DNA of 64,000 nucleotides from Lumbricus rubellus (lineage: Eukaryota > Annelida > Clitellata > Crassiclitellata > Lumbricidae): NCBI GenBank assembly GCA_945859605.1, contig OX243816.1, positions 32,679,175 to 32,743,174 on the forward strand, read 5' to 3'. Below are positions 1-64,000 of the stretch, in pieces; the stretch's first letter is position 1, and each line of letters starts with the position of its first letter. The notes beneath the pieces were generated by a model. It was not told the origin of the DNA. It searched no databases and saw nothing but the letters and a program-made list of their open reading frames with translations. Made by a program: the position numbers and the translations under genes.

Positions 1-307
1 TGTTGTCTTCCGTTTGTATAATGCAGACTATTGTCTTCATAATTTATTGTCTTCAGTTGGCTCCGTGTGCAGTATCATGAATGACTATAATTAAAATTTT
101 ATGTAGGCGCTATTCAATTTGTATGCATAATCTATTATGCATGTAAGGATGAATGCATGCATCCATGTGTGAATTTATTTCCCCATAAGAAATCATTGAT
201 GCATGTATGACATTGTCTGTACGCATGCATGTATGTAGCCTATGTATGTACTCATATATGTAAGTAGCATTGTAGCCGCCTATGTATGTATGTATATATG
301 TATGTAT
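1..307. other. AT-rich intergenic DNA with degenerate TATG repeats
   Basis: No gene is visible. From about 190 the sequence becomes rich in TATG and GCATG steps, the same simple repeat that resumes on the other side of the hAT-like element at 1273, so that element appears to have landed inside a microsatellite. Confidence 0.6.
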
Positions 308-1272
308 TAGGGCTGTTGTTCGATTAAAAATTTTAATCGAAATTAATCGCGCGATTAATTTTTTTAATCGCAATTAACTGCAAATTAATCGCAATACATT
401 TCCTTCAAATATATTAATCTTACTATTTTCTAAAGACCCATGTAGCATACAATTTTAATGACTGAATGCATTCTTTCTATTGCAAACATATTCAATAACC
501 TTTGGCACAGGCCTATTGAATTTCTGCATTTAGTTAATTGAACAGTTTTGTGTGACAGCCAGAACTGAAACACTGTTCAAATCAGTCAACTGCCCAAAAT
601 CCGTTATTTTTTCATTTGAGTCACCTTTGTTTAAAATGATAGACCTATAGGCCCAAATGTGAAAATTAAACAACCGTTTTCTGACTATCAAAATTAATTA
701 TTTATTCAGCCAATTGTATAGGAAGACCATTTTATCTACATTGGTCGGTTCAAGGGATGCTCTTATTAATTAACAAGAGTAGATCTACTATTGAACCTCA
801 TTATAGTCACAATTTTTCACAAGAGGTTGTGGCTCTTGCCAATCCTGGTCTCAGTTGTCCTCTTTAAACATTTATCATTTGAAACCTGGATTCGTTGGTC
901 TTGCCATCTCATGGAGTTCAACCAACGTAGTCTGACGGGGTGAGGAAAAGAGGAAACAACCTTAGTGGACGATGCGATGCGGCCGATGTCGACGGCTCAT
1001 CGTTAGCGTTTAACGCATGTTTTGGTTCGCATGCAGGCGATAATTGAGCAAAGTATTGCTACGATAACACACAAATTCTATTTTGAAATATTTGCCAAAG
1101 AATGTATCACCAACTTTAAGTATGAGCCTTCCGTTTAAAACGAGTTTTCTGCCTCTGATTTCATTTTAATCAGATCTAATTAACGCGTACGATTAATGCG
1201 TTAAAAATTTTAATCGCAAAATATTTTAACGCGTTAATCGCACGCGTTAACGCGATTAAATCAACAGCCCTA
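308..1272 (+). mobile_element. Non-autonomous hAT-like DNA transposon, copy 1
   Basis: The element begins TAGGGCTGTTG and ends CAACAGCCCTA. Subterminal DNA is rich in inverted TTAATCG and GCGATTAA words at both ends. A second copy lies inverted at 35561-36529. The flanking 8 bases are GTATGTAT on both sides, but they sit in a TATG microsatellite, so this duplication alone is weak evidence; the second copy gives clean support. No transposase reading frame is visible. Assignment to hAT rests on the 8-bp duplication and the (T/C)AGGG-type ends and is an inference. Confidence 0.75.
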
Positions 1273-1576
1273 GTATGTATGTATGTATTTATGTATGTAT
1301 GTATGTATGGATGTATGTACGTATCAATGCATGTATGTATGTATGTATGTATGTATGTATGTATGTATGTATGTATGTATGTATGTATGTATGTATGTAT
1401 GTACTATGTATGTATGTATGTATGTATGTATGTATGTATGTATGTATGTATGTATGTATGTATGTATGTATGTATGTATGTATGTATGTATGTATGTATG
1501 TATGTATGTATGTATGTATGTATGTATGTATGTTTGTATGTATGTATGTATGTATGTTTGTGTGTATGTATGTATG
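1273..1576. repeat. (TATG)n microsatellite
   Basis: About 300 bp of nearly pure TATG repeat with a few interruptions (for example GTACTATG near 1402). The long reading frames across it on both strands are repeat translations, not genes. Confidence 0.95.
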
Positions 1577-6917: not shown

Positions 6918-9900
6918 ATGCTGAAAGGCACGCCTGGCTTTCACTTTGAGAACTGGGCAAAGACGTATGGCTGTGATCCCGAACTCTACTTTGAGCCGAC
7001 CAATGAAGCGGAAGTCCGACAGGTCTCTTTCCATTTCGTAGTCCCCAAATTTCCCCCAAAATTATACAAGTTATTTTATTACATAACTTTGATGATGTTT
7101 TAATGACATGGTTACTACAACTTTTGGTTGACATAGCTCTGTGATATGTTATGCATTATATTTTGTGCTTTAAGTAGGCCTAAGTTTGATCATGTTTGTT
7201 TGAATCATGTTATTTAATCGATTCTTGTCTTAGCTTGCGACTTATGTAGCGCCATTAAAAAAGTGCCCACCAATGATAATACCTGATTCAGAATAGTCAT
7301 TCAGGTATATTGACCAGCCAGTTCATAAATTTCATGTAAGCCCATTATGACAGGATGCCTTTTCTGTTTCACTGGCTCGGCATGTTACATTGTGCTAGGC
7401 ACGTGTGTGTGTGTGTGTGTGGAAGACATGCTCACGGTCATTACATGGTACAGCCTGTTCAGTAGCGACTTTAACCCTATTGACAAAGTGGACACAGTGT
7501 CACAATGACCTGACACCCTGAAGCCTATATTGTCCTCATGTTGTTGTTTATTTTGACGACTCGTCTTAATTTAGATCTGTTGTGTTGACTCTGTATCAGA
7601 CTGTATGCGTTCTGTAAACGATATAATTTTATAAGTAAGAGTATCTGCCCAGCTTGAATGGCACAGATCTGCATATATTGTATTTCCTTTTGTTGTATTT
7701 AAGCATTTTTCTTCACAACTTTTGCACCCTAGGCGGTAATTCACATTTACACAGCTGGGCGTCAAGAGTTCTGAGTGCCCAAGGACTTCTGGATATTACA
7801 TGGGAGCCCTTTACTTTCCCAAGACAGTAACCATCCGAAGGGAGGCTTGAAGTTGAGAGTACTCACCTTCAGTTGCTGAGTCCCATGCTAGATAGCGTGC
7901 ATATGGTGCTGGTGTTAAAAATTGTATTAGATAAACATGCCAGTCACTATATTTAATTATTTCGGTAGGTGTTGAATTTGGCCAAATTGAACAAGAAGTC
8001 GGTGAAGGTGATCGGCAATCACCATTCTCCGTCAGACATTGCATGCACCAGCGACTACATGGTCTCACTAAAACATCTCAACCGAGTCTTAGAGGTAAAC
8101 AAACCGTTTATTTATGCACCATTCTATCATAGTTGAATGTGCCAAACACTATGATAAGTACTGTATTATATATTTTTTTTGTAAGAATTTATAAATCGCC
8201 TCTCTTGCAGCACACGCCAATCAAAGTGCTCCCAGTGCGAAAGACCCAGAGTGTTGTCAGTTACCCTAACCAATCCCCATTTTCATACCACAGTCAACAG
8301 AATGTGAAAAGCATAGTGTTGTGGATGAAACAACTTAAGGATCATGCATTTAGATTACAGTGTTTTTTTAATTTCACGTATAATTTCTTCGATGGATTTG
8401 GTAATATGGATATTATTTTGTTGACGATAAGGTGAATGTTGATGCGAAAACAGTGAAGGTTGAAGCTGGAATTCTATTGTCTCGACTCAACAAAGTCCTC
8501 GACGACAATGGCCTGGCGCTAAGCGTGTACGTATAAACTTATTCTTACAGATGTACTTTCGTTCGGAATATAATGCGTAAGGTAATTAACATAAGTTATG
8601 CTTCTCAATCTGATTGGTCGAAAAGTTGAGTGAATTTCAAAGGAAATGTCTTGCATTTCAGATAAACATTTCAGATAAATTTTTAATAAATTTAAAATGG
8701 TGTCTGCGTCTTACAAAGATATGTGATCTATTTTCTCTGTTTCGGTATTTTGACATTTAGCCATTGTGACATGCATGTGGAGTTTAGTTGGTCCTGCTGT
8801 CTGTTTTGATGGTAAACAAGTCCTTCAGTGACAAGAACGATTGCATACGAAACATATTGTTGATTGAGGGCGTAATAAAATGTGCGGCTACGTTGTCCAC
8901 TAAACTTGAATGTATTCTGGTCGACAGACTTGGGTCAGTTTCCGATATATCTTTGGCTGGTGCAATCTCAACTGGAACGCATGGAACAGGAAAGAACTTC
9001 CCGATTTTCAGTGGTTATGTGAGTTAAATCCTTCTTCAAAATAGATTCTTTGTCTATTCCTCCTGGTCAAAGCTATATTCAGACGATGTATTCTGCAACC
9101 TGGGTGTAATATTATTATCACCACCCCAAAGTTTTAGTAACTATAAGTGATAGAGACTCGATGTTTGTGTCTATGATACAGTTTTGGGGTCAAAATAGTA
9201 TAGGAAGCTATTTTTAATATCGTAGAACAATTTAATTACCTTCATCTTCAAGGTCGTTTGACTGCTATTGTCCACAATTTGTAAATAAAAAGATAAATTT
9301 GAAGGCATGAAGAGAAATCTCGATCCAAAAGAAGTTTGAAAGGTTGGAAATCCAAGGGTGTCATAATCAACATCGTATGACCATTGGATGAACTTATAGT
9401 TCAAATTCATTTAACCTACTTTGGTCAATGTTTGGTTTAACAGAAGCTACAAGAGTAAAGGTTTGTTTGTTTCATAGACTGCAGTATTTCTGAATGCATA
9501 AAAGTTATATGCTGCATGGCCTTGTTGTTTAACGACACTCAGGCCTACTATTATTCATGGAGTGCATTTACGGCAGAGTGGCAGATAGATACATTTATGT
9601 GTCTTTTGAGTTTATTTTAGAAATTAACATAGAAATGTTGTCTGATTTCTTTTGTCATATTTTATTTTTCTTTAAATTCTTTTATCTGTGTAATGATCTT
9701 CTGTATTTGTCTACATTATTGCCTTACAACTTCCTACTTACTTACAAACTTTACTTATATGCAACTTAGCTCTGATGCTTGCCTACCCTTAAGTATACTT
9801 CTAAGCGCTACTCTCCTAGATACCAAGGGGTTGCAAACAAACTTTATTGCCTACTGTCTTAATTAAGACAGTAGGCAATAAATAGGATTGGATGACTGCT

Positions 9901-21000: not shown

Positions 21001-21152
21001 CGTGTGAAACGAATCGTAACACGTTCGGAACGAGTTCCCAGAATCAGGCGACAGGTGGACAGCGTCAGAACTTATGTTCGGCGAAAGAAATCGAGCAGAA
21101 GAAACAAGAGGCTTTGCGAAGACGAGAATTGAAACTGAAGGGAAAACAGTGA
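15084..21152 (+). CDS. ETAA1-like RPA-binding, ATR-activating protein (8 exons, 646 aa)
   Basis: ETAA1 is recruited to RPA-coated single-stranded DNA at stalled forks and activates the ATR-ATRIP kinase. Exons: 15084-15133, 15821-15969, 16308-16375, 17113-17204, 17987-18124, 18524-19239, 20030-20131, 20527-21152; phases agree throughout. Evidence for the call: the C-terminus carries a basic helix SAKEIEQKKQEALRRRELK (about 624-642), the RPA32C-binding motif type shared by ETAA1, SMARCAL1, TIPIN and XPA; the N-terminal part has an IEVNWESP block like the WD-x-SP block of ETAA1; two acidic aromatic patches (around 235-246 with YWTDDEFF, and 405-438 with EMFGDDLGDDS) suit an ATR-activating segment. 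The remainder is serine/threonine-rich and probably disordered. Human ETAA1 is longer (about 926 aa). The family call is moderate; the exon structure is firmer. The first donor-acceptor pair uses a weak GTGCTA donor at 15970. Confidence 0.62.
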
Positions 21153-37500: not shown

Positions 37501-40500
37501 GGTGGGCGTTGATTCGGAATTCATAGAAATGTGGGGCATGCTTAACCTCGATTTCAGGTGTTTACAAAGAAAAACAAGAGAACAAAGCCGTATTTCACGC
37601 GGGGATTTCAGTTGACGATTTACTTTGGTTCAACAACTTCTTCGTAGTTTTTCAAGTTCCTTTGAAGTTTATTTGGCGCTTTTGTTAGTTCAGATAGTAG
37701 GCCTATACACTTTCAAAAGTTCGACCGTAGTGACTTTATACTTAGGCGTAGGTCTATAAATAATAGTTTACAATACTGGGCCATCTATAGCATAGCCTAC
37801 TATGATAGTAGAGGCCCAATAAGGCGGCTGACTCATTTGACCAGTACAGCCTTGACCTTCGCCCATTTGACCAGTACAGCCTTGACCTTCGCCCATTTGA
37901 CCAGTACAGCCTTGACCTTCGCCCATTTGACCAATACAGCCTTAAAAATTGAGTGCCTGCACAGTTTGACCAATACTAGCCTTACTTTTTCAAATTCGAT
38001 GTCTGTCGTAAAAAAGTTAAAAAGTAAAAAAAAAGTTTAAAAAGTAAAAAAAGTAAAAAAAAAGTAAAAAAAGTTAAAAAAAAAGTAAAAAAAAAGTAAA
38101 AAAAGTAAAAAAAAAGTAAAAAAATTTTCTCCGGCGTATACAAAATGGACTACTCGAAAAAAGTTACTGAATTACGAAAAATCGCCGAGCCGAGCGGCCG
38201 GGATGGATATTTTACAAGACGGTGGAAAGCGGCGTTCATTGCTAAAATTGACACCCACATCCGCGAATGCTGCGACGATGAATGCCCATGCAAGAATCCA
38301 CGGCCGGATCGCCAACAAGGGCCGGGCACGATTACCGTCGTTCGTCGCCGGCGCAATGGCAACTCACCCCCCGTGTGATGTTAGTTTGATTGACAACGAG
38401 ATCATCGTCGTTAATTGTCAATGCAATGGCAACTCATCCCTGTGTGACGCAAGGGTGTGAGTGGACTACGACGTAGATACGGGATTACAATATCGCAAAC
38501 GATTTTACACCGTTGGTTTATAATCGTCTTTGGATCAATCGAATTATTGCAGCTATAGTAGAGGTTCAGTTTTTAGGAACACCGCGTAAAAAAGTGTGAC
38601 ATGCTACAAATTTAATTCGTTGGAACGTTTTTGATTCGACTTCTCGTGATGGAAATTTCCCGCAGTATTGACGATGCGCTATTAGGCCGACAGTCTTTTC
38701 ATTCACTTTCGTTATCGATATCAAACACGACATAGGCTATTTTTCATAGTCGTCTCTTCATCATCGTAGTCATCATCATCATCATCATCAACCCGATTTG
38801 TCGTCGTCATCTTCAACATCATCACCGCCACCACCACCACCACCACCATCGTCATCATCATCATAGTCGTCATCATCATCAACATCATCATCATCATAGT
38901 CGTCTCTTCATCATCGTAGTCATCATCATCATCATCATCAACCCGATTTGTCGTCGTCATCTCTTCATCATCGTCGCCACCACCACCACCATCATCATCA
39001 ACAACATCATCGTCGTTCTCGTTGGTAGGAGAGAGAGACGGTCAAGCTCTGTACAAAATTTCGCAGATCGGTATTCAGTAGAAAATGTTTCGTGTCACGC
39101 CTCAGTCGAATAGATTTCAAAAACGTCCCTGTCACGTTTTATCGAAAAGTGTGACGGGTCCCTCGGTCACACTGTATCTAGTTATAGTCTGACGTCATAG
39201 GACCGCCCTCCCGCCATAGCCACTCACAGTCAAGTGATAGAACGCAATAATGGTGGGATTTACCAGTTTCGATATTAATTATCACAAGTAGTAGGGAATG
39301 TTGGCGTCTGGCGTATTTTGTCAAAATCGTTTCACAATGTTACCAAGTCTTCATTTTCGATCCACGAGTTGAACGAGTCTGGGTAGCCCAACCACTTCAC
39401 GAGACATTTCTTCCCGCGTTTCCTAATCACTTTTTCGATTCGAAATATTTCTTGAGTCGTCTTCTGTAGCTCCTGTTCATAGAATGAGCCTTGTATTTCC
39501 TCAGAATTAGAATCAGTAATCTTGTAAGTTGGTGGATCTGTATATTGAACCTGAGATACTACAAAAACCTCCTCCGTCCATCTAGGTATATATCCTTTGT
39601 CAAAAATGTTCTTCTTCCTAGTTATTCTGACTCGATCGCCGATTGAAAACTTTGGTGTAATAGGCTCTGAAATCTCGTCGCCGTATAAATTCATAAATAC
39701 AGTCTTTTCGTTCACCTTCATACTAGCCTTCGCGGGGGTCATTTTAATTGAAGAATGTCTCGTGTCATTATAATTACTAACCATTTCGTCTAATACATCG
39801 ATATATCTTCTAGTTGAATTAGCCGTAAAGTACTTGAACATTTTATCTTTCATCGAACGCACCCATCTTTCTACGATACAACTTTTGCCCTCGTTCTCGG
39901 TAGAATACAGCTCGACTAAATTCTTTACGTTTTTGTTATAAAATTCTTTCCCTTTGTCGCACCAAACTTTGACCGGCTGTCGACCGCCCCCGAGTATCTT
40001 CACGAACCCATCGGCTGTAGACTTCCCACTCTTGTCATGTAATGGAACGATCCATCCATACTTGGAAAACACAATGTCATCTATGACGGTCAATAGAAAT
40101 TTCACACCATCATTATCTCTAGCGAAGGCTTGCATGTCGATTAGGTCAGCCGCCCAAATCTGGTCAATCCCGCCAACACGGACACGCCTCGTCCTAAAAT
40201 TTCTCACTACTGGTTTGTGTAATTCATTTGCTAATTGATTACTCCATTTCAGGTCCTGCTGTAATTTTAGGCTTTTTTTAAACCTAGCCCGAGACTCGTT
40301 TTAGCGGACAAAATAGGTTTGACTATCGCCCTCTCTACGCGTTCCCGCAAGCTTGGATTAGGTATATTATTCAACTGGTTTATCATTGCTCTATCAGCGA
40401 CATTCCTAGAAGCCGTATCAGTGTGTTGATTGTATGCCAGGTCGTGAATATACGCCGCACTATCTACCCTGTTTATAGGTTTGCTCCAATCTTTGGGGGT

Positions 40501-43500
40501 TTCGTTGGGATTCAGACGCAAATCTAGTCTAGTACCGGGACCAGTAAACTGATGGCCTGGCAAATGTACCTCACCAGCAAACTTGGCCCAAGGTAGTTTA
40601 ATGTTGCTAGTGGCAGCGTTCAGTGAACTAACTAGATCCCCACCTTGCGCAACAGCGGGCGCCTTCACGAATTGAGTTTTTGTTTTCCCGCATACGACGC
40701 AAACACCTCTGAGCATCGATCTCCCATTATTAGCCACGGCGTTCTGCACATCTCTCGTCTGGGTCTGTTGTTTACATTTTACGCAATACATTTCGTTTTT
40801 TAATAATATATATTTTTAAAAATGGAGATTAGAGATATGAGTTGGGGCACAGCGCTCTCGAAAAGATTCAATAATCCGTTGTTACCAAAAAGCATACGTG
40901 GTTTGATAGTTGGGAAATCGGCGTGTGGAAAAACAACGCTTCTTCTCAATCTTTTACTCAGGCCAGACTGGTTGGATTATAATAACTTGCAGGTATTCGG
41001 TACTTCTCTGTTTCAACCGGAATATCGTATTATCAAAAAAGCATATGAAGAAAAATTACCGAAAGCAGCGATCGTTCGGTTGTTCGAGCACCGAGATGAA
41101 ATCGTGGGCCTAAATGCGTCACCAGACCTTGTTATGGAGGAAATGGCAAAAAACTCAGAGGCTAAATCCGATATAATTGCCAAGTTCTTTGAGAGCGCCG
41201 ATGATGTACCAGACCCGAGAGATTTGAGCGCCGAAAAGAAGAACCTGATGATTTTTGATGATCTTCAATTGGAAAAACAAAACAAATGTGAAACGTATTA
41301 CAATCGGGGGAGGCATAGTAATGTAGATTGTTTTTACCTCGCCCAGAATTATTTCAAATTACCACGCCAAACAATCAGAGAAAATGCGAACTTTATTTGC
41401 CTGTTCAAACAAGACCTGAAAAATTGTAATCATATTTACAACGATCACGTGAGTACAGACATGTCGAAAGATGAATTTAGAAAACTATGCAAAACAGTAT
41501 GGGAACAACCTCATAGATTCGTGGTTTTAGACCTGACTAGCGACAAGTACAATGGTAAATACCGATGCGGACTCGACGAATTTTATATAATCGAGGATCC
41601 GCCATTGTAAAATTGTATTGTATAGTAAAAATGGAATCATCGCTTCTCAAACAGATATCGGAAAACACGGAAAAGACGGCCTGCAACACGGAACCAAAAA
41701 CATCATTTTCCATTTTTCTAAGCGAAAAGAGCACGCGAATCAGAACGAAGTTTAATCCACTACTCGAACTGGAGAAGAATAAGAAATATGAAATGGCCTT
41801 AGTTGCCCTCGAGACGTACTATTCTTTTCCTAATATCGACGCGACAAACAACGGCTTCAGGTATTCGCCGAATTCCAGCACAGATTGGGTAAACATTGCA
41901 GTTCCAGAGGGTTGCTATGAAATAACGGATATCAACGAATATATACAGAGAGTCATGAAGGGGAATGGGCATTTCGATGGAGTAAATGGAAATTACTGTA
42001 TCTCAATAGCGCCAAACACCAATACTCTGAGGTCTGTGGTGAATATAGAAGCAGATTATATGGTTGACTTTACGCCAAAGAATTCGATAGGAAAGGTTCT
42101 AGGTTTCAACAGATGGATCTATTCGGGCGGATACAACGAATCGGAGGACTTGGTAAATATAATGAGTGTAAGCAGCCTGAGAGTGACCAGCGACATTATC
42201 GGGTCTTCGTACACTAACGGAACATCGGAAAACGTGATATATTCTTTTTTCCCAAACGTAGGCCCCGGTTACAAGATTATCGAAGTGCCGCATAATTTGA
42301 TATATCTCCCGATTTTGCTGTCTACAATTTCAACGATGGAAACGAGGCTCACAGACCAACACGGGAACCTACTAAATCTTCGGGGTGAGGAATTAGCGAT
42401 TCGATATCACATCAGGGAAGTTTGAAAGTTTTTGTAATTTATTAATAAAATGAGTCGTTACATGGGCGTAAAAGTTAATATTTCAGAAGCGCAACAAGAC
42501 AAAATTAAAAGATCACTTCAAGCGGGAACCGGCGTGAGTATCAAACTATCGCATGATGATTTGAATGGTGAACACGTTTTGGCTCTCACCCAGGCGCAAA
42601 TCAATAAAATGGCGGCTGCCTACCAAAAAGGAACTGGCATGATTATTAAAATGAGTAAAACGCAATTGGAGAACAACAAGAAAGTCGAAGGTGGATTCAT
42701 AGGCGCTATACTTCCGTTTCTAGCGACAGCGGGACGGTTCCTTCTTGGTAGCGTACTGCCTAGTTTAGCACAGGGCGCATTAGGTGGGTTAGGTGCTGCG
42801 GCTGGATCGAAACTTGTCGATAAAATCAGCGGTTCGGGCGTAATGTATGTCAAGAAAGGTGACATAGCGTGCAAAATAAGAGCGGCCGGATCCGGTTTGT
42901 ACTTGTCTCCGTGGCAAAAAGGCGCATCGATAATGGGAACCGGGCTTTACATGAAAACAGGGTCGGGCTATGTGAGTGGCGAAGGACTTTTGCTCGGTCC
43001 CAACTCGCCGTTTCGAAACATTCCGATTCTCGGCATGATATTATAAATTATCATATGTAAAATGTCGAGACCAATACACAAATTTGGAACTAAACCAACT
43101 AGACCGGTAGAGGTTAGAACGCAGCCCGTTTCAGTCTTTTGGAAGATTACGAGCGGTGTTACTCGCACTCCAGTAAGACAACTAGGAGGTCTGCGATGGG
43201 AGATTTTTGCGCAAAATGATATCACGATACAACCAAAGACAGCAAATACGCTAAGGCTTGGGCTCGGTGTAGAAATGGCGGCGGGTCTTTGCCTCGTTTC
43301 CCTCAGACAGGCTATCAAAGAACGACGATGCAGTCTACTAGACGGGGTGATTTCAGAAGATGTGATTGATGATATCATAGTTTCCATTCAAAACAACTCC
43401 GATTCGGCGGTAACGATAAACGAAGGAGATTCGCTATGCTGTGTAAACTATCAACGGTAAAAAAATATATATTGCTAATAAATAAAAGAATGGAATACGA

Positions 43501-46500
43501 AGGCATCAAACTCTATCCAAACCTAACAAATATAACACCCTCCGCGCCGGAAGGTGAAATACAAATAGCCGCGGGGTCTGCACAAACGTATCGACTTCAG
43601 AAGATTAGCGAAATCAAAAAGGAGATCGAGCAAGAACGCGACAAAAGAGCAGCGTTGAGTAAAAAGTACCATAGAAGTGTGAGCGTAATCGGCGTAGTAG
43701 ACAACGTCCTCATGGCGGTCACGATGGGGCTCGGAATTTCGGGAATCGGCGTACTAGCCACCATAATTGCAACCCCCATCGCTATTGCTATGGAAGGGAC
43801 AGCGCTAGGTGCGGGGCTATTGAGTATAATTGGCAGCCGAATCTGTAAAAAGCTCGCCCTGAAGGCGGAGAAACACGAAAAGATCAAAACGCTAGCTGAC
43901 GCGAAGCTCAACACGATCAGCGACCATATTTCAAAAGCACTCGTGGATGATCACATTTCAGATGAGGAATATTCTCTGATTCTAAGCGAGATTGAAAAAT
44001 TCAATGGCATGAAAGAAGAAATTAAAAGTAAGTCGAAAGTTGCGGCAGCCGCGATGGACGAGGAAACGAAACAATCTCTCATCGACCGAGGAAGAGAAGA
44101 AGTCAGGCAGTCCTTTCAAAGCATGTTTGAGAAAAATACCGAATCTGTGAGAAAGACGACTAACGTGAACATGTATGAAATCATGTAGACTTGTAGAGTT
44201 TTGTAGACCTATGTAGACCTATGTCGCTATGTCTGAAAATACGTCTAACTTGTGTTTTTACACATGTCGAAAAACATGTCGAAAAACACGTCTAGAAACA
44301 CGCCGGAAAACATGTCGAAAAACATTAAATTTTTTATTAAAAATGTCGTTTCTAAAGATAGATGACCCGGCGAAAAGAAATTTCATAGTCGAAGAGTTTC
44401 TGAAGTCCAAGAAGAATATTCAACAAAACTTTTTATCGGAGAGATTGGGGGATTCGGGGCTGCAACAAGAATTAACCAAGCTGTACAAGCCTATCGTCGA
44501 TTCGCAATCCGCAATTTCCAAAGAGCAAAATGTCTTACTATCCGCCATCAAAGAAAACTCGGTAGCTACTACAAACGCGCTACAAACGCTACCCGCTTCG
44601 TTGAAGGTTCAATTTCCTCAGTATCCCTCGATAGAAGCGTATAGCGACGATCCGACTGAGGATATTAGAACTTTAGAATTAGGTGATGTAGCCACCAAGT
44701 ACCTTCATCAATACGCCTCCGATAGAAAAATCGTAGACACGACGTTCGGAATACGATCAAAAAATGGACAATTCTACATCGGCGACGCTCCGATTTTTAT
44801 TCAAGGTGACGATGTGACGGTTGGAAATAAGACGTATGGCGGAACACCGGGGCTTTGGGAGTTGTTGACGATGAAACAGCCGAACGCCTCGATATACGAT
44901 AATAATGATAGAGACGATTACGCCGAGATTCTACTCGCGTCGGATGCTATCAGACAGCCAAAAAATCCCAACAAACCGAAAGCATCTTCGAGCGTCAAAT
45001 ATAGAGAAATTATCAAGCCGATATGGGAAAAGAGGACTCGTAATGCGGTGGGTAAAGGCGTGGGCGATGTAATTGTTATTTCCGAAGATCCAAACGTGTT
45101 AGCGAAACAGCTAGAACTACGATTTCAAAGCTTCAAAGCAGGTAATACCGGCGTGAGAAACGAGATCGTGGCGATGTGCGACGCGTTATTGAGGCAGGAA
45201 GTGCTGAGTAAAGATGCTTACAAAAATATAATGATGACATTGTAAAATGCAGAAAAAATGCAAGTCATTAATAGAAGGAGGTATAGAAAACAATACGTTA
45301 TCGGAGGATCGGGAATATTCGATACAATTTCGGGATTTTTCAAACGACTAGTAACGTCGAACGCCGCCAAACAATTAGCAACGACCGCTCTCAGCGCGAG
45401 TAAAGACGTGGCGAAAGAAATTGGGAAAAAGGCCATCGATGTTGGGAAAACAACCGCAATCGACGCCGGCAAACGATTAGTGGACAAAGCAGTAGCCAAA
45501 CTGTTTACTCCTGCCCCTACTCCTACTCCCACCTCCAAGAAAATTACGCCAGAAACTATACAAATTTTAGAGCGGCTGAGCGGCGTCGGGTCGAGCCCAA
45601 ATATCTCGAATATCCCGAATATTAATAATCTGATGATGGGGGATGGTCTGAAGAAGAACGGCGCCATGTCGATACAAGATTTAGTACGCTCGCTAAACGG
45701 CGCCGGAATGAAGGTCGCGTAAAAAATATATTATCGCGTAGTAAAAAGTAGTAAAAATGCAATCATCTGATATTCTGAGATTTACCGAACAACCATTGAG
45801 CGATGAAAGCGTCGAACGTTACGAATGGTACGAGTATGAGCCGATATCGGGGGCGTATATGAACGATAGGTATCTACGACTACCTAGTACAAAAACTCGA
45901 CCTGCAATCCGGCTCCGCCCCTGAGAAGAAGGCGACCGGCTGTTGGCTTGTTTCCGGATATGACAGAATATACCCTCATACCGAGCTTATCGTTGGCGTT
46001 GAAAAATATGGCGACGGTTGGTAATACGAGCGATATTCTGCTGCCAACCGTTGATCCACCAGCCATGCATTCAAAAAGTTCGTTACTTTGTATCTCGTCT
46101 TTGACATACGAGATTCTGATTATTTTTTCGCCCGGACTGTCATTTCCTATCAAGAAATTCGCGAATCCGCCAAGTCGATATACGCCCGTACGAGGAATAG
46201 TTATTAAGCCCAAGGACGTCGTATACGCCGAATCCGTATTGATGGCAACGACCGTTAGTTGATGGTGCATTAGATATACGCCTCCGAATGCTCCACCATG
46301 CGTTGCATATGTGCCCGAGAATGCGCCACCACTTACGATTGTGGTTGCTCCCCCTCCACCCTCCTTCAACACACAAATAGCCGGTCCGGTTGTAGGCCGC
46401 CAATTCGGGGACAATGCTGGTGCCGCTGTTATAGCTCCAGCCGTTCCTTCGAACCTATATGTAATACCGCTCGTCGTATTTCTCACTAGATTGCCCGGGG

Positions 46501-49500
46501 ATACCCTCATACCCGAAACGTAATCTCTAGGGGCGATATCCGCTGTTTTATCAACGACTAGGGCAGTAGCCTGGGCTGAACTAATAGCGTCACCCCCGTT
46601 ACCTGTAAAAGGGTAATCAGTCGGTAACCCTACGAGATGATGGCCATTCATATTTAGATTCCCAGTCGCCGGATTTGCTCCATCTACCCTTAGAAAAGTA
46701 CTGTTTACTTGGGACAGCGTAACGCCCCCTGCAATTATTCTTTGCGTAGATCCTGAATCCGTATGGCCAAATTTATCAACAGGCATTTTGAAAATAATAA
46801 TTTTTATTATTTAGGGTCGTAAGAATGCCGCCGAAAAGTCACGACACAAAATGTACGTAGCGATGGATGAAAAAGCGTGTATGCTGAGGTAATCGAACTC
46901 GTCTAGAAAAACTATGTTACTTCCGATTGAATGGTTGCACGAACCTTCCATGCTCACTCCGCCCGCAATTTGCATGTACGACACCCCATTTTTATACAGG
47001 TGGACGGTGCCATACGTGGTATTACTATTGTTACAAAATTCTATGTACGCCGAAACGATATAGTACCCGGCTTTACTGGGGAAGAAAGAAGTCGTTCCGA
47101 TACCCTGTTCAATACCGTGTTTTGCGGTACCGCATCTGATTACGTCAAAAGTAACTGCAGTGTGAGATCTAGCGAGTATAACCTGTTGAGTTGAACTGTA
47201 AGCGCTAACCGCAGGCCCTACTACCGTCGCCACTTTCGAAGTAAGTTGTTCATCGACGTATTTCTTATTCGTCAAATGATTATTGTCGGTCGGAACGTCG
47301 TCGTGATTCCGCAGTAAATCTATTACTTGCCCCCGACTCACGGCCTCATCTATCCCCGCTTCCGGAGTATTCGCTGTATTCGTTGTAGGCAGACCTCTAA
47401 TAGTATGGCCACTCATATTTAGATCTCCAGTCGCGGGGTTTGCTCCATCCAGCCTTAGAAAAGTACTGTTTACTTGACTTTCAGTAACTCCGCCAGCAAT
47501 TACTCTTTGAGTAGATCCTGAATCTGTATGTCCAAATTTATCGACAGGCATTTTTTACATCTGAATATAATTTTCAATGCAGGCTGTTTATAACTTCTTG
47601 AAAACTCACCCCATCTTTGCATGTTTTTTTCAGGACGTGCAGGCATAGATGACCGCAAAACACTTCGTTGTCGGGCTGTACGCGTTCGCTATTGTAGTAC
47701 ACGGGACTCTGTAAATACTTTACCAGTTCTGTAGGAGGGGACAGGCCATAGCTGTCGAAATATATTTTATCCTCACCGTTCTTTGAAAAAGCGACCCAGT
47801 GCGAGCCGGTTCCATTAGAATCGTCTAGATTTAGAATGCCACACTCGTTCCGGTTAGGTTTCTTTGGGAGCTCGTCTCTGAGAAATACTCCCCGGAAATT
47901 AGGGATATTGAGCTTTTTCGCGGCATCTAGTAGTTCAAAATTTGTCAACGGATGATTCGGGAGAATAACGCCTTCGACATTTATATTTTTCACAGTTGTA
48001 TAGCTCATTTTAATATTTCATCTAGATGTTTCACAAACTAATGAGCTTTCGAGCTTCTACGCAGGCGAGATAATATTTATGTCTGCAATTTTTGCATTCA
48101 TTCGCCTTTCCATCTTTTTGAAATCGATTGTTGACGTATTCCGATATGTTCTGATTTACCTTACACCGGCTGCAAACTTTTGTGTCTTTTGTCTCCCTAA
48201 TTTCCTGTCTTGCGTATTTGTGTGCAAGCTCTTTCACTTTGGCATTTTTACAAATTTTACAGCTGGGGTAATACCCGCTCTTCTGTGAGTTATCTTTGTG
48301 AAATTCGTCCAAGCTTTTTTCTATTTTGCATTTAGAACACACTTTTTTTGCCGCATCCATTTTATATTAGTGTAAATTATTCTTTATTTTGTTTAGTTTT
48401 CAGCGTGTAGTGCCCATAGGCTAGGGTGTGGATCCCGTCGTCCATTATTACTCTTTTGTCGTCGTTTGCTGAGAGAGCTATTTTATTTACTTCTTCGGTG
48501 TAAATTTCATGGCGATAGGATCGAATGACGTTCATCGCTCTCGACTGTTGTCTTTTCGTAAACACGCAGTCTTTGTAATCTGCGTGAGTGATTGATTTCT
48601 TGACGACGTTCTTTTTCACTCCTTTACATTTCTTGTAGTCTTCACCCGCCATTTTGTAAGAGTACAACTTGGATCGCAGACCGACAAATTCTTCAATCTG
48701 TTTTCCCGCGGCCTCGTCTTTGAACATACCAACCACTTTTTTATTAGCGCCAGATTCTATACCCGACGGATGATCGCTCGGATAGTCTGAAGTATACTTT
48801 GGACGTCGGGGGAAATATCTTTGTAGAAGTCTACCGTTTTAATTTCATACGCCAAAGAATCGGTATCGGTGAATAATAGCTTGGCCCTATCTCCGTACTT
48901 GGCCTTGATGTAATTATAATGAAACTCATACATGAGCGTCTTACTAACGTCCAATATACACATTCCTAGATATATCGGCTTGTTGTAAAACAACTTGGTC
49001 TTTTTCATGTGAACGGCGATGAGGTTTTCGTCGAAAATCGTTCGTCTGTCGTAATTGGTTTTCGCGGCTAGCTTGATGGCTTCCTTCTCACCACTCACCA
49101 ATCGTATGTCAACACGATTCTCGATAGCTTCCATTGTTTTACCGAAAACGCTATTATTCATCAGCTTGAAAAAGTCTTTCTCAAAATCGTTCGCAGCTTT
49201 CGTTCTCAGGTTGGTATTCAGATCGATATACTTTTTCAGCCAGGCACTTTCCACGAATTTTATTCCTCGATGTATTTTTACGATTTTCAATCCGAGACTT
49301 TCATACAATTTTAAATTTTCGTAATGAACGACGTACTTCTTTTTATCGTTCAAGTTTGGAATGAGTTTCGCTACATTCGATCCCGCGGGTTTTACACTCT
49401 CTGGAGCTAGAGGATAATCATTATGCAGGTCGTGCAATTCCTTTGGATATTCTAAGTCGACTTCTAACACACATCCCACTCCATCTCGTTCAGTAATGTT

Positions 49501-52500
49501 TCTCCAATCAGTCAATTCGCCATCATTCATCCATTCGAACCCGTGAGTTGGTAACGGTTTGCTCATCGCCCATCCGTACAAGTTGTTCGCGTCCAAGTAT
49601 GGAATGAATACTGATTGCTGGGTGGGATTGAAAGCTTCTCCCATGTACTCGTTGTTCGCTTTCGCGTATCGATGTGAAATCGTGCTGACGCCTCCTCGTA
49701 TTCCCTGCTTGATCATCAGCAACATATCGTAGTCACTCAACAACTCCAACTCTACACCAGTCGTCTTCAACGCCGCATCCCATGCAAGTCCTGGGCTAGT
49801 GTAGTACCACGCAGGATCTAGGTTGTAGTGCTTCATACAGACGTCTCTGAAGTTTTCGAACACATCCGCTAATAATAGAACATCCGATAAATTGTACAAG
49901 TCATGATATTGTCGTAATGTTTTGCATTCAAATTTGTCCCATACCGTTTTCGCGTGCGCGTAATCTTTTTCGCTGATACCCGAATCGGTTAGTTTTGAAT
50001 AGAAGGCATGCTTCGATGGTAATTCGGTTTCGTTTAATCTTTCAACACCGTCGACGTAATCATATGGGTAAACGCCTTTTCTGAGTAAAAGATCCAGCTT
50101 CTCACCTTCAAAAAATTTCCCTAAATTCTTGCACTGGTCTTTCTGAAGATTTTTCGATAACGCGTCGAGGCTCGAGGGCATGAATCTTAAACTATCGATG
50201 AAACGTAATTCGCGCTTGACTTCTCTCTCTTTTCCATCTGCGTCTACAAATTTATCGACGACGACCTCTCTGCTGAATGAGATATACTTTTCTTCATTGC
50301 AGGGAATGCATTTGATTTTCTCGCCGTGTTCGCCCCGTAATTTCTTGATAAATAAATGGCTGTCATAACCTTTCAAATTGTGAAATATGACAGGGAAGAA
50401 CTTGGGGACTTTGTATTTCAGATTACAAAGGTTGTGAGCGGCACCTCTAAATTTTCCAGTCAAATGACAGTGATCTCGTACTCGTTTTTCATCGTCTATA
50501 AATTCCCCCCCGCATATATGGCAAACAGTAGCCGACTCGAAAAGCTCCTGCTCTTTCTTTCCGAATATCATTTTCTTTGGGAATTTGAACTGGTTATATA
50601 TTCGTTTCACATTTTCTTCAAGACTGTCTATGAATTTCTGAGCGACATCATCGTCTTCGTTTTCAGCTGTAAACCTCACAGGCTCTTGAGAATAAACATC
50701 ATCGTCGAAGCATTTCAAATGATAACAAAACGAACTGGGCGTATGTTTTTGAAACTTGTTGGTGTAAGACGTGCTAGGAACGGGTTGGCATGTACCGATA
50801 GGTTTGATGAACGACTCAAAATCGGCAAAGTACACAAACGGTACGCGCATCTTTCTATAGTGATGTGTAAAACTTAGCATAGTCCCAGGTTCCGGAAGTT
50901 CTATTCGTTGGGCGTCCTGCTGCGAACAGTACTCAGTATGTTTGCGAAGCGATTCTACCTTTCTAAAACCGATTAAACATCTTCTGCAATAGTGCATTGA
51001 ATTATGGGATTTTTCTGTTCGTAGTGCTAGCAATCTGTTAAAATTCTTGATCCAGCAATAATGCTTCTTTTCCCCATCAGAAATGAGTAATAGATCTACA
51101 CACCTATCATTCTCATGCTTTGATATATATAGTGGGAATACATTCGCTTCTTTCTCGTAACCAAAAACATTAACACTAATATTATTATTTCGCTCAAACT
51201 TACTCATCACATTAGCATCCGCTGCTACGGGGAATTCGATACCAGACCAATTGAGTTCCTCAGACTGTCTAATTAATTCTTTCTGTATTTTTGTCGACTG
51301 GGTTTACAGCTCTCGTTACGCACCACTTGAAGCATTCATCGTCTTCGTTCTTCATATTAATAATAGCCTTTTTATTCGCCAAATAATCAGGAAGTGGAAT
51401 ATAAGAACTTCCTTTCAATGGTTTATATACCACTGTATCGATATCCAACTTCAAAACGGTTTTGAATCTCCAATTACTCCCCCGCATTTGAAAACTGGCC
51501 ATGCTCTCCTTAATTTTATCCGCTGCGTTGGCATATATTTCCCTCACATCGGTTGCTTCTAAAATAATATCACTCTTTGATTTGAAATTAGGCTCGGCTG
51601 TTACTACTTCGCCGGTTTTCATATCTACTTTCTCCATTACGCACATGAGGTCGAATTGAACTTTTACCCCGCGATTTTTCCCTAGCAGCCTAACTACCTG
51701 CGGTCTTACTGCCTTGAGAAAAGTTGCAACATCGATCCCGTTGTCGCCATCGATCGTGTATCTTTTTGTAAACCCTCTGATAGCCGTCGCAGTCTCTCGA
51801 AGTTTGAACCTATGAATGGGCGGTTTTATCTGCGGAGGTAACTCACTAATCTCGCGAGTCAGCCAATCCGAAAAAACTATTTTATTTTTCCCCGTGTTCA
51901 AAAATTTCCAAGTATTAGACAAGAATGCCGTAAGTTCCGCTTTTGCTAATCTCGAGTATCCTCTTTGTCCTCTCTTTTTTGCAATTTCTCGCATTTCTCG
52001 TACAGTGGCGGGGGTTTGCGCTGGTGCTTTGGTGACCTGGGCCACACGAGCGCCTAGTCGATCTCCCTGCGATATGAACGCTATGAGTTCCGCTTTTCGC
52101 AAACTCGAGTATCCTCTTTGTCCTCTCTGTTTTGGAATTTGTCGTAATTCTTTCAGATTATACGATGAGTAGTCCATTTTATATTGGGATATCTTGTCTT
52201 TAGGCCGAGTTGGATATTCCATTTTTTCAGTCATTTTATATACGCCAGAGAAAAATTTTTTTTTACTTTTTTTACTTTTTTTACTTTTTTACTTTTTTAC
52301 GACAGACATCGAATTTGAAAAAGTAAGGCTAGTATTGGTCAAACTGTGCAGGCACTCAATTTTTAAGGCTGTATTGGTCAAATGGGCGAAGGTCAAGGCT
52401 GTACTGGTCAAATGGGCGAAGGTCAAGGCTGTACTGGTCAAATGGGCGAAGGTCAAGGCTGTACTGGTCAAATGAGTCAGCCGCCTTATTGGGCCTCTAC

Positions 52501-55500
52501 TTATGATCATTCGCAGCAGTTTGACTTTTTCTTTCAAAGCATGCATACTTAGGCCATACTTATTTCAAACGGTGGTTTGTCTCGACGTTGCATGGCAGAC
52601 CAAAATATTCTCTTTGGCCCCTTCCTCAAAGTTTTGACTTTCCTTCCTTCTTTTTGTGTCGATACCGACAATTGAAATTTTCGTTTGCGTCTGTGTGACT
52701 CAGATAAAACACTCCGGCGTCTACGTTTCTTAATCCGAGTTGAAAGTGATGGTAGACCTATAGGCCTATATGGAGTAAGCCTAAACATCAACAGGTTAGG
52801 TTAGCTGCCAACCTACTGAAAGATAGACTATTTACCGTACGATTACGACTGAAAAATAAGTAGGCCCACCGTATGACTACGATGTGTCGATGATTCGGGT
52901 ATTTCATTGGAGAGTCGACATGCTCTCCAGGAACACGAGTCATGTTGAAGATGAAACTGCAGCATCAGCACAACATTCAAAGCTTCAATTAAGTGACAAT
53001 TACTTTGCACATTTTTATATCTATCTTTCTATCTGAGGAATTTGTATAGCGCCCCTTTAAAACAGTTATTCAGAGGCGCTCCCTACCCCGACACGGCCAA
53101 AGAGGAAAGCCTTGAACAGCTTATAAAAAGAATTAGACAGTCCTGCCTAAGCCTATACCCAGGGCTGAAAGTGAGCCGGGTCGGTCCGGGTCTGAGACCC
53201 GGCATCGATTTTCGAGACCTGCTGTTGCCGGGTCTCAGCCGGGTCGTAAAACAGGCAGTCATGTGCCAAAAGTAGGTAAAAACGGTGGAATTTTCGGTAA
53301 TTTCGGGCAAATGACTATAGGAAAAACGTCGTCAGAAACATTTATGGGCCAAAGGCGTGCTCGTTCGCCAAGGTGAGACCCGGCAACTTTTCCAAACCAC
53401 TTTCAGCCCTGCCTATACCGCAGGTAAAATGTGAGGTTATCGGTATTCTAAGCGAGGGACTCACATTATTGAGAAAGCATTATTCTGTCTGATTGCAGTG
53501 CGTGCATGTGGCTGTAATTATGCTAATAGGCCGTGTATACGTATACGATTTATTGCAGTTGTAGTTGCCAAGAATTTACGAGCTGTCGTCGACCGTGTAG
53601 CCTTTCTTTCTAGTGAAATGCCTGTTTTAGTATTGTCTGGTTCACCTGCACCTATTATCGTTCATTTCAAATATTTCGAAATGATTAACACACGTTTCAT
53701 ATTAATAATGTAAATATCGCAACCGATGTACATGTATGCATAATTCAAAATGCTTATGGCATTGTGTGTAGGCCTACTACATCCGTAGAATGGGATGCAC
53801 ATGTAGCCTGTGTAAGTATAGCTTACTTAAGTAAAATACGCATATGTTTGCGTGATTGTTAGATTATGCATACATATATGTGCGATACAAATGTATATAG
53901 GTCTACTTATATGTGTGTATGCTCGTATGTATGTGTATGTATGCATACATATAATTATACCTACATGTACTGTGATGTACATATAGTATCATATACACAT
54001 AATGCATTAAAATTTTCAGAGAATTCATATAGCGCCTTCACATACTTGTGACCATGCATGCAGATTGGCACGAGATCTTGCATCATTATCGGTTCATACT
54101 CCATGCGAGACAGCACTCCTTCGAATCTGCACGAATCAAAATAAATACAGAATATCCATTACAAGTTATTATAGGACAGTACAGTAATTATGGCTTCTCT
54201 TCTTCATATTTTTAACAGTCAACTGTCGGATAATAGGATTGCACGTACCGTAAATAGAGCGTAGGCCTGTATGGATAAACATGCAGGGCCATGGACCAAA
54301 ATAGTAATCCCTACGGATTTTTGCCATTATCTTTTTGCCAATATCTTGGCTAAAATGTGGATTTTCAAATCAAATTTCACTGGCTTAAGGGTAATTCATA
54401 TCTACGTACAATAGCCAAAATTTTACCAAGAAATTCCAAGTAGAACAAAAGTTATATCACTTTTATTGAGCCCATCCACTGTTTTTGACGATCCCAAAAC
54501 GTAACGCAACATAAAGTTTAAAAAAAACGATTTTATTAAGTCACATCTCAAATTACCTTTAAAGTTTAAACTCGTGAAAGGTGATTTGAAGATTCTTATT
54601 TTTGGCCAAGATATTGGCGAAAAACCGTACTAGGGGTTACTTTTTTGGCCAACCCTGTATAACCGACTTCGAACTTGGTAATCCACCGTTTTTATGGCTC
54701 TACCAAAACAGGCAAACTGAGCGTGATTTTTTTTTTGGGGGGGGGGGGAAGGGTAAATCCATAAAGTTTTCTAACGACAAGAACTGCATCATATATAGTA
54801 TATATCTATATATTAGATAACATAAATATGTATGTTGTATTATAATATACTGACTGCGCGTATACGGATATAACTGTGGCCGCTCTTGCCAGCTGATCAG
54901 TTATCGTGTTCTCCGCCAGAACGCTGGTCGTGTAGTAGTTGCTATTGCCTGTCAAATAATAACAGATCATTCAACAATTCAGCGTTATAAGCAATGCGTA
55001 ACTACATACATACATACATGCATGCATGCATGCATGTTTTACATACATACATACATACATGCATACATGCATACATGCATACATGCATACATGCATACAT
55101 GCATACATGCATACATGCATACATGCATACATGCATACATACATACATACATACATACATACATACATACATACATACATACATACATACATACATACAT
55201 ACATACATACATACATACAATACATACATACATACATACATACATACATACATAATTACATAATTACATACATAATTGCATACAACATGTACATTCATAA
55301 ATGCATGCCGATATGCACGCATACAAGCATGCATACATAAGTTCTTAGATGCATGAATACCTACATGCATATTGGCTTTTGATACTTACAGATAAGAGGT
55401 TCTCTGTAAGATAGATAAGCGGCGAACAGCCAGTAGTCGTACAGCCAGTTCTCTGTCTTCTCAAACCTAGAGGGAGAGACCAACATAATTATATTATATT

Positions 55501-60200: not shown

Positions 60201-60265
60201 GTATGTATGTATGTATGTATGTATGTATGTATGTATGTATGTATGTATGTATGTATGTATGTATG

Positions 60266-60296
<31 letters not shown>

Positions 60297-61986
60297 CTAT
60301 GTATGTATGCATGCATGCATGCATGCATGCATGTATGTATGTATGTATGTATGTATGTATGTACGTGTGTACGTATGTACGTATGTATGTATGTATGTAT
60401 GTATGTATGTATGTATGTATGTATGTATGTATGTATGTATGTATGTATGTATGTATGTATGTATGTATGTGTGTATGTATGTATGTATGTATGTATGTAT
60501 GTATGTATGTATGTATATTATGTATGTATGCAAATTTGCATATATCTATGTATGTATGTATGTATGTATGTATGCATGCATGCATGCATGATTGTATGTA
60601 TGCTTGCATGCATATTTGTATATATGCACATATGTATGTAGGTAGGTATGTAATTATATATCTGCATAATCGTGTATCTGTGTAATTATGTATATATGTA
60701 GGCCTACTGTGTCCATGTATGTACGCAAACGTGTATATGTAATTATGTTTAATGTAGGAATGCATGCATGTGTGATATCTATTTGTAATAATGCACATAG
60801 ATAGCACACATAACATATAGCCTATGGGCTATAGGCTGTTACACATGTAACATATAGCCCCTTGGCACATGTAACATATAGCCCCGAGGGACATCTTTGG
60901 AAACAAAAAGATTTTACATATACAACAGTCAAGCTACATCGCTAGTAATGTTCTGTTTATAAACACATATCATCATGCCACCAACACGCCGAATGTGACA
61001 ACCGAAGTAGTCAAACTGGCCGCAGAAATTACAAAAGTGCGCAATTACCTTTGAAAAAAATATCAGGTCAAAAACCGTTTTTTTACCATAAATTGGTCAC
61101 GCTGCCAAATAAATCAACAGCTCCGCCACTATACCTGCAGGCTAACTGTGCGCATGCACTAGAACATAGATATACGCTACAAATAAGTAAACAACATATA
61201 TACAATCGTTGTAACATATAACCCCTGTAACATACAGCCCCGGTCTCCCCTATAGGCCTAGCTACCCATGCGGTTGGGCCGGGTTGGCCATAAACTGAGC
61301 ATGTCTGAAAGACGTATAGGCTACTTGATGTATCCATAGTAACTGTTTAACAACGGTTCATGACAACAAAGGCCGTCGACAGAAATTGTTTGGCATGGTA
61401 TATTATAAGTCTTACAAATTCAAGGTGTCGTAAGGGAGGTCAAAGTTGGAGCTTTTAATTTGTAATCGCACAATAAATGTATGTATAGCCAATGACCTAT
61501 TAGGCTATAGGCCTAAGTTTTACAGCCAGAAGTAGGCCTAGCCTAAGTAGTTATTCCGTCGCTACAGAAATCGTGAACAAGTACATTAATCTTAGCATTT
61601 TCATATGCAGCGGGAATTTTATACATAGATACACCGTGATTCAAAAAAGTAAGCCAAACTGTTTTTCATATAGGCCTAATTATCTCTAATGCCTGACAAC
61701 ATTAGGCCTATTACGCTAAAAAAATTCCAAATATTTATAGAGAATTGGACCAAGAATATGATTCTAAAATTTCATAAATAAATGCCATATGCTCACGCAG
61801 ACAAGCGGCGGATCCGTAGGCCTATATAATATATAATTTTCATATGCATCAGTCTGGATTTCAGTAAATCCAGTCTCAAAACTCACCTATTCAAACAATC
61901 GTTTATTTATTGACAGTAACATGTTATCCCGTGTACAGCGCCCTTTCCTTCGGCCTCGGCCGAGCTACGGCGCTATATAAATCGTC

Positions 61987-62140: not shown

Positions 62141-62205
<65 letters not shown>

Positions 62206-63060: not shown

Positions 63061-64000
63061 GGCTGGTTGTATGTCCCAACTGACCGAGAACGTCGAAATA
63101 TTTACACTGACTACTTACTGACTGACTACTATTGCACTGTTAGATCGAGAATTATACTATTCGAACATATTTATAAGAGTAGGTTTGCATATGAAGCAGG
63201 TAATTATTGAGTCACCTGGCAGCCAGTCAGAAACTTCGGTTCATCATCGTCTACGCAGTTGGCCAATCACGACAGGTGGAATATCAGATGTGACAATTAC
63301 TGACCCGCCACTTAGAGAAGTCACAACAAAGTTATCAAGTCACTCTAGACCAAATCTTTATGCAATCAGGGTTACAAAATAAGTACGAAGGTCTCTTGGC
63401 TCAGATTTTAGGTCACAAGATAGGTCTCAATCTAGTTCGTCAATCAATATTATCGAACATCTTATAGGTTAATGTCATGTGCCGCTCAGAACAGATATAC
63501 AGTATTAGCAAGCCTCCATGTCTTGTCCTACATGTGGCGATAATAATAAACTTATAATTATAATGTTATGTAGTAATAATGTTACTTAATGTACACCGTG
63601 ATTCAAAAAAACTAAGCCAACCTGTTTTTCATATATCTCTAATGCATGATAACATATCACGCTAAAGTTTTAAAAATATTTAGAGAATTGGACCAAGAAT
63701 ACGATTCCAAAATTTCATGAGATAGAGTTGAACGGAGAAAAAGATATGAATCTTTCAACTTCATATGCCAAAATTTCAGTTTACAAGAAATTTTCTGTCC
63801 GATTCAATAAAAAGTAAGGCTAGTAAGCTAAACTGTTTTTCTTATATCTCCAATGCCTGATAATTAGGCTAATCATACTAAAATTTTCCAGATATTTTAG
63901 CGATATCTTGAAGGGGCTAGGAAAATAAATTAAAAAATAAAGATCATACAAAATAAAAAGAAGCAGATATCAACATAGACAGATATAAAGAAAGCAGAGG
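63061..64000. other. Upstream (5') region of the CPT1-like gene and dispersed repeats
   Basis: The frame upstream of the ATG at 63060 meets a stop (TAA) within about 70 bases, so this ATG is the likely start unless an upstream coding exon exists. No TATA box was evident. The far part (63593-63900) holds further copies of the ACACCGTGATTC repeat family. Confidence 0.45.
63593..63705. repeat. Dispersed repeat, ACACCGTGATTCAAAAAA family, copy 3
   Basis: Similar to 11235-11335 and 61631-61755. A partial diverged copy follows at 63806-63900. Confidence 0.8.

Follow-up and report, generated by a model that had tools for sequence, protein, structure and literature searches.

Six-base insertions at TA, some of them recent, and an abundant palindromic word in the genome of Lumbricus rubellus: possible excision scars of a Tc1/mariner-type element

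Introduction

Excision footprints of the Tc1/mariner superfamily of transposons are already known. The footprint of Tc1 is TACATGTA, and those of Minos likewise belong to the general background of the field. Here we analysed 64,000 nucleotides of the annelid Lumbricus rubellus (assembly GCA_945859605.1, contig OX243816.1, positions 32,679,175 to 32,743,174 of the forward strand; this whole stretch is called the window). The palindrome TAGGCCTA is present at 47 sites across positions 1..64000, together with 38 sites of the shorter words TAGGCTA/TAGCCTA and six sites of the 9-bp forms TAGGCCCTA/TAGGGCCTA. Our preferred reading, to which we give a probability of roughly 0.55, is that TAGGCCTA in the compared repeats and genes is mostly a six-base insertion at TA, and most likely the scar left on excision by a Tc1/mariner-type element that has GG...CC ends.

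The cutting geometry of such elements is described in several papers. Sleeping Beauty has three-base 3' overhangs and footprints that match them (PMC7827188, PMC8151067), and the 5' cut falls three bases inside the element in both Sleeping Beauty and mariner (PMC7827188). For ISY100 the 5' offset is given as two bases (PMC2170065). The pogo element Passer leaves footprints of 0-4 bp, which the same source calls similar in Tc1/mariner (PMC9976928). Within the open-licence literature we found no genome in which one footprint word is so abundant and recent and has no visible source. TAGGCCTA as a whole word was not found in open-licence papers, and its occurrences inside longer strings included none on this topic among the titles listed.

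Results

The window contains 47 copies of TAGGCCTA, while 100 dinucleotide-preserving shuffles gave a mean of 0.50 (sd 0.78, maximum 5) and none of them reached the observed count. TAGGCTA was found 20 times and TAGCCTA 18 times, against first-order Markov (Markov-1) expectations of 2.4 and 2.7. The whole assembly (787,420,884 bp counted, 368 contigs) contains 326,253 copies of TAGGCCTA versus 5,862 of the reversed word, a control of equal base composition. For the 7-bp words the assembly counts were 209,415 (TAGGCTA) and 208,255 (TAGCCTA), 417,670 in all, versus 31,991 + 32,341 = 64,332 for the controls. The copies of TAGGCCTA and the 7-bp words above their control counts amount to about 674,000. 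These results bear out the initial annotation, which had described both word lengths as far above chance, and the shuffles and Markov-1 expectations rule out chance or base composition as the source of TAGGCCTA.

A genome sample made up of twenty 10-kb stretches, drawn from ten contigs (4,006 bases being N), was also used; "264 kb" below means this 200-kb sample plus the 64-kb window. The number of TAGGCCTA per 10 kb ranged from 0 to 15 among the 20 stretches. Words of the form TA-G(m)C(n)-TA showed a sharp peak in the 200-kb sample, with 85 G2C2 (1.6 expected), 56 G2C1 (8.3) and 66 G1C2 (8.2), and the forms G3C2 (7 vs 0.3) and G2C3 (1 vs 0.3) were rarer. TAGCTA (G1C1) was not enriched in this sample (33 in total vs 41 expected by chance), which counts against independent addition of G at each end. 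The same count bears on the healing of DNA ends by telomerase or by some other templated enzyme, in which 3'-TA ends would gain GG on both sides and then be joined. TA followed by GG does match the common animal telomere repeat, TTAGGG. By our hand reckoning, however, healing with independent addition at the two ends would add about 33 TAGCTA per 200 kb to the chance level, and it gives no reason for the CATG filling described below, so that we consider it extremely unlikely.

Protein frames were used to read the state before insertion. The word at 29984..29991 lies in a KRBA2-like integrase frame (within an inverted-repeat element at 29318..30680, arms 363 bp, 98%) and gives IRPTREV in place of ITREV, an exact 6-bp gain. 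Of 120 listed relatives, out of 509 matches, 119 cover this place and have neither residue, and the remaining one, P0070, is aligned there by another stretch. The words at 31053..31060 and 31140..31147, which lie in a Tc1-like transposase frame, each bring an in-frame stop, and the nearest relatives, P0242-P0246, are without exactly two residues at both. The exact insert size at these two sites is given by near relatives only. Among 120 listed rows of 706 matches, 28 were short of the span at 31053 by two residues and 80 by one, 2 had a span of at least the same length, and 10 did not cover it. At 31140, 38 rows were short by two residues, 68 by three, 7 by four or five and 2 by one, 4 had a span of at least the same length, and 1 did not cover it. 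A third word of this frame, at 31105..31112, is not clean, since it lies within a five-residue (~15 bp) difference from the nearest relatives. All three inserts (31053, 31105 and 31140) are shared by P0241, which is 91% identical.

As a side observation, P0241, a transposase fragment from a public contig, has Q in place of the window's TAG, which points either to a reading of TAG as Q or to changes at two sites.

Two families of repeats were then aligned. The hAT-type non-autonomous repeat, with TAGGGCTGTTG ends, has one window copy at 308..1272 (minus strand, with 8-bp direct flanks by eye, and empty at the 35784-type site) and another at 35561..36531 (plus strand). Forty of 1,232 candidates were scored. 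Besides the window copies there were 37 near full-length places, and 20 of these, all taken from the plus strand, were aligned with three more to give 23 copies. Near full-length copies having been chosen, sites occupied by an element would not show among them. The 23 copies carry 869 substitutions from the consensus over 21,700 positions.

The TAGGCCTA at 35784..35791 is an exact 6-bp insertion, present in the window copy (w35) and L193 and decayed in L173. It is absent in 20 of the 23 copies, 19 of which have TA and one CA. Copy L204 has a private TAGGCCTA at a TA retained by the other 22 copies and also TACATGTA as a private 6-bp gain, and L206 has TAGGCCTA where 19 other copies have TA and three have TG. 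Nine 6-bp gains were found altogether, eight of them leading to TAGGCCTA or TAGGTCTA and one to TACATGTA. As aligned, the gained bases were TAGGCC five times, TACATG once, and TATAGG, AGGTCT and GCCTAC, the last three also giving TAGGCCTA or TAGGTCTA. The gain in L197 sits where other copies read TATGC, so the starting site was not a plain TA. In L208, a private exact 5-bp gain of TAGCC produced a 7-bp word directly, and a TAGGCC gain lies inside an older TAGGTCTA. This last gain, together with TAGGCCTAGGCCTA at 37299..37312 in the window, which reads as one insertion within the TA of another, suggests re-targeting. The eight 6-bp gains of GGCC/GGTC type and the one 5-bp gain correspond to 0.010 per substitution (interval 0.0047-0.0197), a count in which w35 and L193 are possibly one event and from which a 5-bp placement in L203 reading TAGGTCTA was left out.

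Two other words of this repeat have different histories. The TAGGCCTA at 36320..36327 is ancestral to the family, being intact in 17 of 23 copies and showing point changes in the other six. At the site of the window TAGGCCTA at 36033..36040, 13 of 23 copies have TAGATCTA, a few have no insert and one has TAGGCCTA. The GATC in this alignment column (561) may have come from GGCC by two transitions, or be another filling. The private gains in both families rule out that the word was, in general, ancestral and then lost, although the site at 36320 is ancestral.

Other transposon classes were rejected as sources. The clean gains are 6 bp long with only TA doubled and no 8-bp direct duplication around them, which excludes hAT scars. 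The doubled bases being TA also excludes ISL2EU or PIF/Harbinger, whose target sites are given as AT and TWA in a published account (PMC4482050).

The Tc1-like non-autonomous element at 30680..31935 (plus strand) is TA-flanked and has CCGGGTGGCGC ends and inverted repeats of ~216 bp. Forty of 348 candidates were scored, and the scored matches other than the window copy were 97-99% identical to it. The alignment held 19 copies, namely the window copy and 18 of the 39 other scored matches, 12 picked for a length >828 bp. These copies lie only 0.73% from their consensus. All four window words (31053-31425), the last of which occupies 31418..31425, belong to the consensus, with all four intact in 14 of 19 copies and one altered in 5 of 19 (intact copies: 31053, 19/19; 31105, 16/19; 31140, 18/19; 31418, 18/19). 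The four words were therefore inherited through amplification of the family. Fresh gains were found as well: a 6-bp TAGGCC in L215 and another common to L217 and L218. Because these gains arose within a family only 0.73% from its consensus, the insertion process is recent. Two events per 242 substitutions give a rate of 0.008 (interval 0.001-0.030), assuming that no 6-bp gain of the 40 lies outside the 834-bp copies and that the 40 diverge like the 19 aligned. The insertion rate is thus roughly one per 100 substitutions.

These alignments bear on whether the word has spread mostly by copying, that is, by amplification of word-carrying repeats with little new insertion. Copying explains the four words in the Tc1-like consensus of a family with 40 scored matches among 348 candidates, and one ancestral site in the hAT-type family. 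Against it, private exact gains occur in single copies of both families, and 38 of the 47 window sites lie outside the counted compartments with flanks that look unrelated by eye, although two of them, 61671 and 61703, are part of a dispersed repeat. We therefore consider it improbable as the main source. The two TAGGCCTA in that repeat (61671..61710) are missing from the paralogues at 11233 and 63592, which are without them by 10 and 7 bp. A TAGGCTA at 63865..63871 is a possible 5-bp gain relative to paralogues at 11252 and 63613; the alignment is gapless after removal of GGCTA, but the surrounding bases differ too. Paralogue pairs were read where they aligned across the word and were not of low complexity, and most were too diverged for a size.

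In conclusion, the protein frames and the two repeat alignments agree with the initial annotation that 6-bp insertion at TA has occurred, and they show it at several sites and as a recent process. Its further statement that removing GGCCTA restores the ancestor in every place holds for the exact 6-bp gains at 29984, 31053, 31140 and 35784, but fails at 31105 (~15 bp), at 61703, 36033 and 61671 (7, 8 and 10 bp relative to paralogues) and at 36320, which is ancestral. Insertion was likewise right for 31053 and 31140 among the words of 31053-31425, but all four were carried along in the family consensus rather than gained separately by the window copy.

The bases around the doubled TA follow a rule. 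After removal of low-complexity flanks in the 264 kb (8-mers 132 to 123, 7-mers 160 to 157), RTAY was found at 55 of 123 8-mers and 79 of 157 7-mers, versus 27% of the 7,567 TAs within 600 bp (p = 4.9e-6 and 3.4e-11). YTAR was avoided (10 8-mers and 11 7-mers, versus 21% of nearby TAs). GTAC was over-represented (14 vs 3.7 for 8-mers, 16 vs 4.7 for 7-mers) and TTAA under-represented (3 vs 11.9 and 4 vs 15.2). The TAGCTA control had no overall RTAY bias (p = 0.46), though GTAC stood at 4 vs 1.1 (p = 0.028), and the TAGGTA/TACCTA control leaned the opposite way (p = 0.034). Ten listed insertion sites had RTAY in 6 and YTAR in 0, and TACATGTA also leaned to RTAY (31/63, p = 1.4e-4).

The common target rule suggests that 8-mers and 7-mers come from one process. 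The 7-bp words could instead be 8-bp words that lost one base, as a single deletion in GG or CC would yield them. However, the 264 kb contain 160 7-mers (21.6 expected) and 132 8-mers, whereas the 24 one-substitution forms add up to 133 vs 62, and L208 has its private exact 5-bp gain. Such decay is accordingly very improbable, and the 7-bp forms look like direct products.

The fillings between two TAs were counted in the 264 kb with low-complexity contexts dropped (118 of 132 GGCC and 153 of 160 GGC/GCC were kept). Among palindromic TA-N4-TA words, GGCC was the most frequent (118 vs 2.2), followed by CATG (52 vs 5.8, of which 36 outside arrays), TATA (21 vs 7.4), AGCT (16 vs 5.4), GATC (10 vs 4.6) and CCGG (7 vs 1.9). 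The mixed-end filling GGTG/CACC was not enriched (3 vs 6.6). In the assembly, TACATGTA numbered 145,684 versus 45,699 for the reversed word.

Transposase loci of the genome were examined for matching ends. From 146 DDE_3 matches (150 scored of 2,758 candidates), six open-frame loci were fetched. The inverted repeats were TA-CA at four of them (L230, L231, L233 and L234), which are TA-flanked and Tc1-like with open transposase frames of 363-374 aa, and TA-CG at one; the sixth, a relative of L231, gave no clear ends. Cutting two bases inside CA ends would leave TA-CA-TG-TA, which is TACATGTA, and by analogy GG ends would leave TA-GG-CC-TA. On the side, many genome-wide matches have a 366-aa open frame and an equal score, and the CA-ended Tc1-like families look recently active.

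One candidate source, a repeat ending in TA-GGCGTACG (L175 2287-3107 and 3955-4194; window 36671-36910), was rejected as hAT-like and not TA-flanked. It has CATAGGCG at five of six ends, and in L175 it shows 8-bp flank duplications by eye, one with one mismatch. The stretches L175:2287-4194 and window 36671-36910 read as a short hAT-like repeat with CATAGGCGTACG ends. Searches with pairs and triples of TAGGCCTA in viral contigs gave no source among the matches listed. Among the loci looked at, L068 holds 8 words within 7 kb but has the look of a viral contig. In bacterial genomes, 41 stretches matched a scan for triples of the word.

The distribution of TAGGCCTA along the window is patchy. Outside the separately counted compartments its density is 1.24 per kb (38 of the 47 sites). 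The word at 7175..7182, in intron 1 of GULO (exon 1 at 6918-7025), is the only one in two gene regions. No TAGGCCTA occurs at 7,969-13,773 (the rest of GULO) or 15,600-23,000 (a second gene with bounds set by eye, which we take to be ETAA1-like), giving 0 in 13.2 kb, and a word-free run of 18 kb (7183-25237) covers most of both genes. Genes as such are not word-free, since several words lie near a carnitine acyltransferase exon on the minus strand at 24860-25306 (Pfam PF00755, E 3e-21). CpG content was alike in 1-kb bins with and without words (p = 0.95). The closest match to the GULO protein of the window shares 90% identity. In a tree of 38 GULO proteins, the window protein falls within a lophotrochozoan group (98/94), and the support is 93/87 for its group with Capitella and 84/71 for that with nemerteans.

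A 14.7-kb element at 37807..52501, which we take to be Polinton/Maverick-like, has 226-bp inverted repeats that are 100% complementary and no TAGGCCTA, as expected because this DNA is young. Its frames include an ATPase of Pox_A32 type and one of 848 aa that matches endonuclease VII; its polymerase frame had no relatives in viral contigs. Long GTAT/TACA microsatellites lie at 1273-1576, 55003-55274 and 60194-60652, and words from them rank with the 8-mers most enriched in the genome sample.

Discussion

The clean 6-bp gains have the feature of a Tc1/mariner footprint, namely bases set between two copies of TA where the ancestor had a single TA. A possible course is as follows. An element with GG...CC ends would enter TA, preferring R-TA-Y (the preference being what we observed), and duplicate it. 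Its transposase may then cut exactly at the 3' ends and two to three bases inside the 5' ends, so that the flanks would carry TA-GG or TA-GGC 3' overhangs. Rejoining with both GG overhangs kept would give TAGGCCTA. With GGC overhangs, GC/GC pairing would give TAGGCCTA again, and full three-base pairing with one mismatch would give TAGGCTA or TAGCCTA. Such pairing yields no TAGCTA and would account for the missing excess of this word, and the 9-bp forms need an extra step. Excision might happen often enough to keep the element rare, with scars piling up at about 1% of the substitution rate, the rate being our estimate. Repeats carrying scars would later amplify and copy some of them, as the Tc1-like family did. 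The footprint reading supposes an element that excises within a few generations and has few copies at any time.

The initial annotation had likewise put forward excision, by a Tc1/mariner element whose ends are GG...CC, as its first mechanism. This mechanism is the best supported one, by the TA target, RTAY, the symmetry of the leading fillings GGCC and CATG, and TACATGTA, but its element was not found in the examined DNA. Several results weigh against it. No TA-GG...CC-TA element was found by repeated words and inverted-repeat scans in 264 kb or at the six transposase loci, which together are a small part of the 787-Mb assembly, although the words exceed their controls by about 674,000. A recently amplified CC-ended family has left at most a modest excess of TACCGGTA (21,047 vs 13,343 reversed), and some sites have gains of 7, 8, 10 or 15 bp. 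These three points hold down the odds we give. In addition, the asymmetric fillings GACC (28 vs 5.9, one change from GGCC) and GGCA (18 vs 7.7) were above expectation, as were the AT-rich asymmetric ATTA (59) and ATAA (57; 20.4 expected). Unlike GGCC, CATG has no one-base-short companion (CAG + CTG, 34 vs 32.8), and the excess of TACATGTA comes partly from tandem arrays. Finally, the rates per substitution are similar in two families of differing age (0.010 and 0.008), which a transposon need not give.

That similarity, within wide intervals, would fit a steady and recent micro-insertion free of any transposon, as would the usually exact size and word and the lack of a source element in the examined DNA. 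A dedicated micro-insertion mechanism was the other suggestion of the initial annotation. Here an enzyme would open R-TA-Y with a two-base stagger, the same two to three bases would be placed on both ends, and the ends would be joined. GGCC or GGC/GCC and a doubled TA would thus be added about once per hundred substitutions, amounting to ~674,000 insertions in the genome. However, a TA target with RTAY, the head-to-head symmetry of the leading filling and the CATG companion resemble Tc1/mariner scars, and the sizes vary at some sites. We consider this explanation possible but rather unlikely, and prefer excision scars.

If the words are footprints, a transposon can act as a major and steady mutagen that repeat annotation hardly sees, and each scar could serve to count and date what the transposon did in the past. 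If the words have another origin, there is a new process of templated insertion. In both cases, an insertion of fixed sequence and 6 bp, arising at about 1% of the substitution rate, would be a ready-made directional marker for dating repeats and comparing populations. It can also place stop codons in frames, as at 31053 and 31140.

Compared with known systems, HIP1-type palindromes of cyanobacteria are likewise octamers over-represented genome-wide; here the word arises by insertion at TA, as the alignments showed at several sites. The internal eliminated sequences of Paramecium are bounded by TA, as here, and are removed by a transposase-derived enzyme, but their excision leaves a single TA and not the doubled TA seen in L. 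rubellus. The CA-ended Tc1-like elements of this genome have inverted repeats adjoining TA, and their two-base scar would be the enriched TACATGTA; with CA rather than GG at their ends, the same rule would not make TAGGCCTA their scar. Tc1/mariner footprints share the TA target, the doubled TA and a few terminal bases between the TAs. The presumed scars described here differ from them in their number of hundreds of thousands, in a matching element not having been found and in the dominance of one word.

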